Source of the DNA: Natronolimnobius sp. AArcel1
GTDB taxonomy: Archaea; Halobacteriota; Halobacteria; Halobacteriales; Natrialbaceae
Direction: 5' to 3'
NCBI RefSeq assembly: GCF_011043775.1
Contig: NZ_JAAKXY010000001.1
Span: 186,001 to 250,000 of the forward strand
Length of the DNA: 64,000 nucleotides
The position numbers and the translations under genes were made by a program. Of the stretch, positions 5,413 to 9,708 are shown piece by piece. How positions within the stretch are numbered: position 1 is the stretch's first letter; every line of letters starts with the position of its first letter. A model generated the notes under the pieces. That model was not told the DNA's origin, did no database searches, and saw nothing but the letters and a program-made list of their open reading frames with translations.

Positions 5413-7248
5413 CTACTCGAGGACGACGAGTACGTCGCCCATATCGACGCTCTGGTCTTCCTCAATTGCGATCTCGGTGACCGTCCCCCCCTTGGAGGCG
5501 ACGATATCGTTTTCCATTTTCATCGCCTCGAGGACGACGAGCACGTCGCCGGCGGCAACCTCGTCACCTTCCTCGACTTCGATGTCGAGAATCGTCCCCT
5601 GCATCTCGGCATCGACCGTTTCGCCGTCGCCGCTGAGGTCCGCCTCGTCGCTCGAGCCACCGGCAGGCTGCGGTGGGCCGGATGGGTTGCCGGCGTCAAC
5701 ATCGCCGGTTGGAATCGCCGGCGCGCCGTGTTCTGCGAGTTCGACCTCGAAGCGCTTGCCGTTGACCTCGACGGTGAACTCGCGTTCGACGGTCTCCTCC
5801 TCGTCGTCGCTCGAGCCGTCGCCGATGTCACCGCCCCACTGTGATTGGGCCTCTTCGATGCGACTTTCGTCGAGTTCCTCGTCGAGATACTTCGTCGTGT
5901 GTGTGCTCTCGACGAACGCCTCGTCGGTGAGCATCAGGCGGTGGAACGGGATGATCGTCGGGATGCCCTCGATGTCGTACTCTCGAAGCGCGCGCAGCGA
6001 GCGCTCGATGCAGTCGTTTCGGTCCTCGCCCCAGACGATCAGCTTCGCGATCATCGAGTCGTAGTCCGTCACGAGGTCGTCGCCCTGCCGGAGCGCATCA
6101 TCCATGCGGACGCCAATCCCGCCCGGCGGGTCGTACACCTCGAGCGTGCCGCCCGTTGCGGGGGCGAAGTCCTCGGCGGCGTTTTCGGCGTTGATCCGGA
6201 ACTCCATGGCGTGGCCGTCGATCTCGACCTCATCCTGTGCGAAGTCGACTTCCTCGCCTGCCGCGATCTGAATCTGGCGCTTGACGATATCGAGGCCCGT
6301 AATCTCTTCCGTGACGGTGTGTTCGACCTGAATCCGGGTGTTGACCTCGAGGAAGTAGAAGTTCGCGTCGGGGCCGAGCGGTTCGTCGGGGCCGCGTCCG
6401 GGTGCTTCCTCGACGAGGAACTCGACGGTGCCGGCGTTGGTGTAGTCCGCAGCGGCGACTCCGCGGCGGGCCGCTTCGCCGATTTTCTCGCGCAGTTCGT
6501 CCGTCAGGGCCGCTGATGGGCCCTCCTCGATGACCTTCTGGTGACGCCGTTGCAGGGAACAGTCTCGTTCGCCCAGATGGCGCACGTTGCCGTGTTCATC
6601 TGCCAGAATCTGGACTTCGATGTGACGCGGGTGCTCGAGATAGCGCTCGAGATAGACCGAGTCGTTATCGAAGTAGGCTTCACCCTCTCGCTGGGCGCTC
6701 TCGAGTTGGTCTGCGACCTCGCTTTCGTCGCGGACGACTTTCATCCCGCGGCCGCCACCGCCGCCTTCGGCTTTGATCGCAATGGGATAGCCGTGTTCCT
6801 CGCCGAAGGCTTCGACTTCGTCGGGGTCGGTGACCGGGTCCGTCGTCCCGGGGACGATTGGCACGTCGGCGTCGTCCATGATCGTCCGCGCTTTGGTCTT
6901 CTCGCCGAGGCTCTCCATCGCCTCTGCGGCGGGGCCAATCCAGGTGATACCCTCGGCCTCCTCGACTTTCGCCGCGAACTCGGCGTTCTCCGCGAGGAAG
7001 CCGTAGCCGGGGTGGATCGCGTCGGCATCGGCCTTGCGCGCAGCCTCGATCACTGCCTCGTGATCCAGATAGGAGTCAGCCGCTCGCGCCGGCCCGACGT
7101 TGTACGCCTCGTCGGCGTAGCGAACATGGCCGCCGTCTGTGTCGGCCTCGGAGTAAATGGCGACAGTCCCAACGTTTAGCTCCTCACACGCCCGCATCAC
7201 TCTGACGGCGATCTCGCCACGATTCGCCACCAAAACCTTCCTGAACAT
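5413..7248 (-). CDS. pccA: Acyl-CoA (acetyl/propionyl-CoA) carboxylase biotin carboxylase/BCCP subunit
   Basis: A 611-residue fusion of biotin carboxylase and biotin carrier. Residues 1-450 are the ATP-grasp carboxylase (start [20 protein letters not shown], glycine-rich ATP loop GGGGGRGMK near residue 165). After an acidic linker rich in Glu and Ser, the last 75 residues form the biotinyl domain with the target lysine in EAMKMEND. It carboxylates biotin for transfer by PccB to acetyl- or propionyl-CoA. An AT-rich box (about 7276-7288) lies some 30 bases before the ATG, so it probably has its own leaderless promoter. It is separated from pccB-pccX by 437 bases holding a 5S rRNA gene on the opposite strand. 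Confidence 0.95.
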
Positions 7249-7466
7249 TCTTGGGCAAACAGTTGCTCGGCCAGTACCTTACTTTTTCGCAACGGATAGC
7301 GCCCTTGAGAACGGCGATTGTTACTGAGCTGTCTTGTTGGTCGCTTCTCGAGCCGTGATCATCGTTGTGTCTCTGACTCCCACAGACGACTCGAAACGTA
7401 ACTGTTACTACGCACACTCGCCATTGTTGAAACGAACTCGTGGCCAGTCTACTGGCTGCGACGACA
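7249..7466. promoter_or_regulatory. Divergent region between pccA and the 5S rRNA gene
   Basis: No coding signal. On the minus strand the A-rich stretch about 28-40 bases before the pccA ATG is a plausible TATA element. Towards the 5S gene there is a small inverted repeat GTAAC-T-GTTAC (7398-7408) and a GCCAG/CTGGC hairpin (7443-7456) just before the RNA. No convincing TATA box for the 5S gene was seen. Confidence 0.4.
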
Positions 7467-7588
7467 CTGAGGCGGCCACAGCGGCGAGGACCCTCCCGTA
7501 CCCATCCCGAACACGGAAGATAAGCTCGCCTGCGTGTCGGCAACTACTGGAGTGGGCGACCCTCTGGGAACGTCGACTCGCCGCCTCG
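7467..7588 (+). rRNA. 5S ribosomal RNA, stand-alone copy
   Basis: The 122 bases match haloarchaeal 5S rRNA throughout. The universally conserved stretches CCCGTACCCATCCCGAACAC and GGAAGATAAG (7495-7525), TACTGGAGTG and CCTCTGGGAA (about 7546-7570) are intact. Helix I pairs 7469-7476 (GAGGCGGC) with 7580-7587 (GCCGCCTC). Helix II pairs GGCGAG with CTCGCC. Other helices differ from textbook haloarchaeal copies by paired changes, for example the tip reads GG-GCGA-CC rather than GC-GCGA-GC. Such covariation suggests a functional RNA, not a decayed fragment. It lies far from any 16S/23S gene, on the strand opposite the pcc genes. Ends are set from helix I and may be off by one or two bases. Confidence 0.93.
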
Positions 7589-7685
7589 CTCTTCATACTC
7601 GTTCTCAGCCCTCGAGCAACTGCACTATCGCACTCGAGCGCACATCGAAAACTGTCTCAGAAATCTACGCCGCGACAGCGCCGAT

Positions 7686-8027
7686 TCAGAACCGATCCAC
7701 GCGTCCCGCAGCCGACCACGCATCCGTTGGCGCGTTCCGAGGCACGCGAGCGAATCGACCTTGCTGAGCGCGGACACGACCGCTGAACGCCCAGCGCTTG
7801 CCATCCCACGATTCCTCTTCGCTCTGGGCGGCCGCAGCGACGGCAAGTGCCTGATCGTGGAGATGTGCACCGACAGCGGCGACAATGGCGGCCGCTTCCG
7901 CCTCGTCTGCGTCGTCGGGCAGCGTGATATCGACTTCGGACAGGAGTGACGGCTCGAGTGCGTCACACGCGTGCTCGTCCGTGGGCGCGTCGGCGTCGGT
8001 CGTCTCCGTCTGATTTTGTGATGCCAT
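7686..8027 (-). CDS. pccX: Acyl-CoA carboxylase small (epsilon/PccX-type) subunit
   Basis: A 113-residue acidic protein. The central strand-helix segment ([26 protein letters not shown], about residues 32-57) and the C-terminal [19 protein letters not shown] segment resemble the ACC epsilon family and the PccX subunit of haloarchaeal propionyl-CoA carboxylase. It starts 9 bases after the pccB stop, so the two are co-transcribed. In this family the small subunit is needed for full activity of the carboxylase complex. Assignment rests mainly on position, size and the Trp-Arg C-terminal pattern. Confidence 0.82.
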
Positions 8028-8036
8028 CGAACTCGC

Positions 8037-9581
8037 TTACAGCGGGATGTTGCCGTGTTTCTTGTCCGGGTTCGATTCGCGCTTGGTTTCGAGCATCTCG
8101 AGGTCTGCGATCAGGCGCGGTCGGGTTTCGGTGGGGACGATCACGTCGTCTAAGAAGCCCTTGTCCGTCGCGGTGTAGGGGTTGGCGAACTCCTCGCGGT
8201 ACTCCTCGATGAGTTCGTCCCGCAAGGCGTCGGGGTCGTCGGCTTCGGCGAGTTCGTCGCGATAGAGAATGTTGACCGCACCCTGTGGCCCCATCACCGC
8301 GATTTCGGCGGTCGGCCAGGCGTAGTTGACGTCTGCACCGAGATTCTTCGATGCCATGACGCAGTAGGCGCCGCCGTAGGCTTTGCGCGTGATAACCGTC
8401 AGGAGTGGAACGGTCGCCTCGGCGTACGCATAGAGCAGTTTCGCGCCGTGGCGGATGATCCCGCGGTGTTCCTGGTCCGTCCCAGGCATGTAGCCAGGGA
8501 CGTCGACGAAGGTGACGATAGGGATGTTAAACGAGTCACAGAAGCGTATGAATCTCGAGCCCTTCATCGAGGAGTCGACGGTGAGCGTGCCCGCGTTCAC
8601 GCGGGGCTGGTTCGCGACGATGCCGACCGACCGGCCATCGAGGCGGCCGAAGCCGACGACGAGTTCCTTCGCGAAGTTGTCCGCGACTTCGAAGAAGGAG
8701 CCTTCGTCGACCACGCTGTCGACCACATCGATCATATCGTAGGGTTTCTGCGGACTCGAGGGGACGATGGATTTGAGGTCCTCGTCACGTCGGTCGGGGT
8801 CGTCCCACGGCTCGACGCGCGGTGGGTCCTCGACGTTGTTCTGCGGGAGATACGAGAGGAGGCGCTTCATATCGTCGAGTGCCTGCTCTTCGCTTTCGCA
8901 GGCGAACTGGGCGACGCCGGTCTTTCCAGAATGCGTCATCGCACCGCCGAGTTCCTCGTGCGTCACGTCCTCGCCGGTGACGGTCTTGGTGACGCCGGGG
9001 CCGGTGATGTACATGTGACTCGTGTCTTTGACCATGAAGATGAAGTCGGTAATCGACGGCGAGTAGACGGCCCCGCCGGCACACGGCCCCATAATCCCCG
9101 AAATCTGTGGGATGACGCCACTGGCTTCCTGATTCCGGTTGAAGATTTCAGTGAAGCCGGCGAGGGACTTGACGCCTTCCTGAATACGCGCACCAGCGGA
9201 GTCGTTGAGTCCGATCACGGGCGCGCCGACCTCCATGGCCATATCCATGACCTTGCAGATCTTTTCGGCGAACACTTCGCCGAGCGAGCCACCGAAGACG
9301 GTGAAGTCGTGTGCGAAGACGAACGTCGTCCGTCCGTTGACCTCACCGTAGCCCGTGACGACGCCGTCGCCCGGGATCTTCTGTTCTTCCATCCCGAACT
9401 GGCTCGTCTGGTGAGTTCGGAGCTGGTCGAATTCCGTGAAGGTGCCCTCATCGAGGAAGTACTCGATCCGCTCGCGGGCAGTCATCTTCCCCTTGTCGTG
9501 TTGTTTGTCGATTCGTTCCTCGCCACCACCCAGGCGAGCCTCCTCGCGGCGCTCCTCGAGGTCGTCGATGCGGTCTTCCAT
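8037..9581 (-). CDS. pccB: Acyl-CoA carboxylase carboxyltransferase subunit
   Basis: A 514-residue carboxyltransferase of the propionyl/acetyl-CoA carboxylase beta family. It contains the two crotonase-fold halves: an N-terminal [13 protein letters not shown] segment with the AGGAVYSP oxyanion region, and a C-terminal [20 protein letters not shown] segment. The frame is open 27 codons further upstream, but the start at 9581 ([16 protein letters not shown]) gives the standard length and beginning. With PccA and PccX it makes a complete biotin carboxylase. In haloarchaea this enzyme serves the 3-hydroxypropionate/propionyl-CoA and methylmalonyl routes; the exact acyl preference cannot be read from the sequence. 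Confidence 0.95.
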
Positions 9582-9708
9582 CGTCACGTCTGGAACACCC
9601 CAGTCGGTTGCATACCGCGTTGTGTGAGCACCAACTGGAAAAGGATTCCGTAACACTATCACGACCTTTCTCCAATCTAGTAACAGGTATAGGACATATT
9701 TAGAAAAG

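Follow-up and report, generated by a model that had tools for sequence, protein, structure and literature searches.

Additional 5S rRNA genes outside the rRNA operons are found in methanogens and Thermococcus, where they have diverged from the operon copies; for instance, the extra 5S gene of Methanococcus vannielii sits in a tRNA gene cluster. To our knowledge, no operon-tail remnant accompanies the extra genes of methanogens. It has been reported that unlinked 5S genes are the only source of 5S rRNA in Crenarchaeota and Thermoplasma (PMC8339473). Within the Natrialbaceae, a tandem second 5S gene is present in rRNA operons such as those of Natrinema J7-2 (PMC3402447), and an "orphan 5 S" has been remarked upon on pNMAG01 of Natrialba magadii (PMC3403918), which may be a tandem copy (G026:C2:369286). 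Many rRNA operons of the family end in two tandem 5S genes (L240-L248, L032-L034), and the second of these has its own type of t-element, CAGTGGTCTGACGGCGG, and its own tree group. In Haloferax volcanii, tRNase Z matures the 5' end of 5S rRNA at a tRNA-like structure, according to work cited in PMC3296008. Apart from the Natrialba remark and the 5S-to-23S counts given in Halopiger genome notes, no discussion of an orphan 5S gene conserved at one site was found in the literature.

The gene described here lies in a 64-kb stretch of Natronolimnobius sp. AArcel1 DNA (64,000 nucleotides; hereafter the window). A cmscan search of the window against Rfam matched the whole RF00001 model (positions 1-120) at 7468-7589 on the plus strand with 93.3 bits (E 7e-19), the gathering cut-off being 38 bits. 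The covariance-model check proposed in the first-pass annotation thus returned a full-length match and not a poor score, and the complete plus-strand 5S gene placed there between the minus-strand genes pccX and pccA is borne out by this match and the gene coordinates (Table 1), except that the span first given, 7467-7588, starts one base early. The window holds no 16S or 23S gene, because no further Rfam family passes the threshold, and ARAGORN found no tRNA in it, so that the isolation initially noted for the immediate surroundings extends over all 64 kb; the 5S gene does not follow a 23S gene, and the sole full 23S of the genome is on a different contig. The distance from the pccA start codon to the 5S start is 219 nt, and that from the 5S end to the pccX stop codon is 96 nt; PccX, a small acidic protein encoded at the acyl-CoA carboxylase locus of haloarchaea, matched no Pfam family. 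The ends of the orphan 5S carry the copy-specific bases TGAGGCGG/CCGCCTCGC. Three other 5S genes are present in the source genome, all at contig ends and scoring 77-83 bits, below the orphan; operon-type spacer remains on two of the three, and spacer and t-element are found where sequence remains.

Table 1. Features at and around the orphan 5S rRNA gene (positions in the window).
Feature	Position	Strand	Basis or remark
pccA/accC, biotin carboxylase with biotin-lipoyl domain; divergent from 5S	5413..7248	-	Pfam PF00289, PF02786, PF02785, PF00364
Putative separate promoter of pccA, CGAAAAAGTAAGG on minus strand	7271..7289	-	Predicted from the sequence and the matching region of the sister species
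Putative archaeal promoter: BRE-like CGAAAC (7392-7397) and TATA-like GTTACT (7404-7409)	7392..7409	+	Consensus match only
10-bp hairpin just 5' of 5S (7438-7447 pairs with 7452-7461)	7438..7461	+	At t-element place; no TTCRA T-loop
Complete orphan 5S rRNA gene with a closed helix I of 9 pairs	7468..7589	+	RF00001; 32/34 consensus pairs; folding z = -2.47
3' flank TCTTCATAC	7590..7598	+	TTCAT kept in 14/14 orphans
pccX, small acidic 113-aa protein; convergent with 5S; conserved beside pccB	7686..8027	-	No Pfam family
pccB, carboxyltransferase subunit	8037..9662	-	Pfam PF01039

Among 125 genomes of the family, a 5S gene adjoins pccA at the same place and in the same divergent orientation in nine, belonging to five genera (the window genome G000, its sister species G001, G022, G024, G067, G110, G122, G123 and G124), and at least five more genomes carry an orphan 5S at other loci (G028, G073, G075, G076 and G023; four Haloterrigena-like and one Halopiger). 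G024 is presumably Halopiger xanaduensis; G076 matches Haloterrigena salina, and G023 matches Halopiger djelfimassiliensis. In finished genomes, the 5S genes exceed the 23S genes by exactly one, with four versus three in G024, G028 and G123 and three versus two in G073; G028 is Haloterrigena turkmenica (PMC3035258). A profile search found neither a 5S nor a decayed 5S remnant at pccA in about 80 other genomes of the family and at 79 named loci, and all orphan copies are intact; decay of the same copy in relatives, named at the outset as evidence that would count against a functional gene, was therefore not seen. The patchy presence (9/125 at pccA) implies frequent loss or transfer and, therefore, a gene dispensable over long times. 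A leader of the ribosomal protein eL15 (RF03144; L124:2522-2594, L125:3587-3659, L126:1854-1926) is situated 0.3-1.8 kb away from the orphan 5S of Haloterrigena-type genomes.

Relative to the operon copies of its own genome, the window 5S has 11-13 differences and forms 32 of the 34 consensus pairs, compared with 30 in the operon copies; the same substitutions placed at random leave about 27 pairs, and 32 was never reached in 5000 trials. The two misses, 25-53 and 33-43, are common to the operon copies of the genome. Helix I is fully paired in the orphan, whereas the operon copies have mismatches there, and the universally conserved loops are unchanged. The paired changes first recognised against textbook sequences therefore hold against the genome's own operon copies, the conserved stretches are intact as first noted, and neither the broken helices nor the relaxed conservation of a 5S pseudogene was found. 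Similarly, random placement of the substitutions separating orphan from operon copies matches the pair count of the actual orphan in only 0-0.3% of 5000 trials. Six pairs are changed on both sides among 12 distinct orphans, with a covariation score of 0.150 versus 0.090 after shuffling and none of 500 shuffles as high. Kinship of the sequences inflates this control, but the signal disappears when the structure is slid along the alignment.

Comparison of the window with its sister species gives 96.7% identity for the 5S, 91.5% for the pccA coding sequence and 80% and 74%, with many gaps, for the flanks; for G122 and G124 the values are 98.4% for the 5S and 68% and 55% for the flanks. Across the four species pairs that are more diverged, 5S identity is 96.7-99.2% versus 55-82% in the flanks. 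Identity alone was dropped as proof of selection, the 5S and the 23S tail of G022 being about equally diverged from the operons; selection was judged by pairing and covariation instead.

Whether trees are built from the 5S alone or from the t-element plus 5S, the orphans cluster, and none of 500 label shuffles gave a value as low. Eleven or 12 of the 14 orphans fall into one group, which includes 5S of further haloarchaeal families but not the operon copies from the orphans' own genomes, to which the orphans are 85-93% identical. A third group consists of the tandem second 5S genes, and the window 5S is not in it. A tandem second 5S was considered as the origin for its look-alike t-element and rejected, the tandem copies being a separate tree group. 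The window copy and its sister group with the operon copies of G024 and relatives, outside the main orphan lineage, at 94.3% identity to the G024 operon copy (op_G024) and about 91% to their own operon copies. Their site, orientation, CGAAAC motif, ends TGAGGCGG/CCGCCTNGC and end helix are the same as in the main orphans. The 5S of the window genus could be accounted for either by gene conversion of its interior with an operon copy as donor or by an independent second origin at this site, and both fit, within the limited support that 122 nt can give; a shared origin with the main lineage is no more than putative for the window copy because it groups outside that lineage.

A tRNA-like t-element with T-loop lies directly upstream of 11 of the 14 orphans. 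The T-stem of the G022 element carries paired changes, and in G073 an insertion of about 77 nt including a strong hairpin separates it from the orphan 5S (L125:3959-4160). No T-arm with a TTCRA loop and acceptor-like stem directly precedes the 5S in the window or the sister species; both have a similar hairpin of 10-12 bp, with partly compensating differences, and that of the window (Table 1) may act as a processing signal. The putative promoter of the window 5S is 64-76 nt upstream of the gene. CGAAA occurs at a similar place, 7-12 nt before a TATA-like site, at nine of the 14 orphan loci, and most orphans have the pair 64-95 nt before the gene, with the site of the window and its sister some 15 nt nearer; transcription would therefore start near the t-element. 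As judged from sequence, these promoter sites are weak consensus matches, and they are absent in a few orphans. TTCATAC or CTCATAC stands behind most operon 5S genes, and the 3' flank of the orphan may have a role in 3'-end formation.

Evidence on the origin comes from G022, in which blastn identified 242 nt of decayed 23S 3' end between pccA and the 5S (C1:574245-574486), independently matched by the archaeal LSU model RF02540 (130 bits, positions 2725-2973 of 2987). The order of 23S 3' end, operon-type spacer, t-element and 5S is colinear with that of an operon, and the orphan there is therefore the tail of an rRNA operon. The decayed part is the neighbouring 23S and not the 5S. The 23S remnant was seen in this one relative only; a piece resembling operon spacer, judged by eye, is retained in G067, and no whole rRNA operon still at pccA was present among the matches listed. 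The G022 remnant (L117:3263-3500; G022:C1:574245-574499) extends up to 13 nt from the pccA start codon, and the leader and promoter of pccA in that genome must therefore be embedded in, or consist of, decayed rRNA sequence.

The window feature is best explained as a working supplementary 5S rRNA gene that has outlived its parent rRNA operon, a reading given a probability of about 0.72; the stand-alone 5S gene is real and probably functional. In an ancestor or donor, an operon's 3' end, comprising 23S tail, spacer, t-element and 5S, would have landed between pccA and pccX, a step directly visible in one relative and presumed for the others. The 23S part then decayed or was deleted, with the 5S kept under purifying selection, as the comparisons show. 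The shared CGAAA/TATA-like pattern suggests that a small dedicated promoter immediately upstream came to drive the 5S. By analogy with the Haloferax mechanism, tRNase Z would make the 5' end at the t-element in most lineages, as for operon 5S; this step is weakened for the window genus and G073, because the T-loop is lost in the former and the latter has the insertion. In the window genus, where a plain hairpin replaces the t-element, the 5' end would have to be set by the start site or generated by other means, and gene conversion with an operon copy as donor probably replaced the interior of the gene, unless the gene arose twice at the site. With its conserved loops and closed helix I, the 5S would join the 50S subunit as extra dosage beside operon-derived 5S, and extra 5S for ordinary ribosomes is the most economical function.

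Other explanations must be weighed against this reading. An untranscribed leftover of the operon tail, a recent relic whose decay is still to come, would fit the derivation from an operon fragment with a decayed 23S part, the loss of the processing element in the window's genus and the absence from most relatives; however, the 5S is preserved across genera where the 23S, spacer and flanks have diverged, its differences are biased towards keeping pairs, and between the sister species it is more conserved than the pccA coding sequence (96.7% vs. 91.5%), which makes this explanation unlikely. An assembly or contamination artefact might be suspected because the source assembly is broken at the rRNA operons, but the gene sits on an 833-kb contig and differs from all operon copies, and the same arrangement in the independently assembled sister species and complete chromosomes rules out contamination and misassembly to near certainty.

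The first-pass annotation also proposed specialised ribosomes or another role for this copy; its diverged, probably functional second 5S stands on the covariance-model score, the compensatory changes, the conservation across genera and a 5S better conserved than its flanks, while these further roles are possible but unsupported, the loops being unchanged and the differences structure-neutral. A variant making a distinct class of ribosomes under certain salt, temperature or growth conditions would agree with most orphans forming their own lineage, separate from the operon and tandem copies that those genomes also carry, with helix I being fully paired where operon copies are mismatched, and with a possible separate promoter; nevertheless, with identical functional loops, a window copy inside an operon-type group and a patchy presence, this is rather improbable. 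The repeated association with the pccA-pccX site might instead point to an extraribosomal role, e.g., control of the divergent pccA or the convergent pccX, but about 80 other genomes of the family have pccA without the 5S, orphans of the same kind sit next to unrelated genes in Haloterrigena and in Halopiger djelfimassiliensis, and all ribosome-binding features are retained, so that such a role is very improbable. It is doubtful that the orphans are a third long-lived 5S class in the family, distinct from operon and tandem copies, with its own promoter, and that they supply ribosomes with a second, independently regulated type of 5S.

Compared with haloarchaeal operon 5S (RF00001, tRNase Z-matured), the orphan has the same sequence, secondary structure and conserved loops, and most orphans likewise keep a t-element and a TTCATAC-like 3' flank; unlike operon 5S, it has no 16S or 23S upstream, a putative promoter of its own and a closed helix I, and the T-loop is lost in the window's genus. 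The tandem second 5S is likewise an extra, diverged 5S, and it resembles most orphans in having its own t-element, but the tandem copies stand directly behind the operon 5S and fall in a different tree group. Like the extra genes of methanogens and Thermococcus, it is an additional diverged 5S outside the rRNA operons; like those of Crenarchaeota and Thermoplasma, it would be transcribed alone, although here the orphan adds to linked copies. Unlinked extra 5S genes are an already known kind, to which the window gene adds a new, well-documented example; it is a genuine, if modest, curiosity in ribosome genetics. It shows how one rRNA gene can outlast its decaying operon and go on as an independent gene, with one relative still holding the decayed 23S tail. 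It also offers a natural system for asking whether two 5S types share the ribosomes of one cell and whether 5S supply is limiting, and one carrier, Haloterrigena turkmenica, is culturable and fully sequenced.
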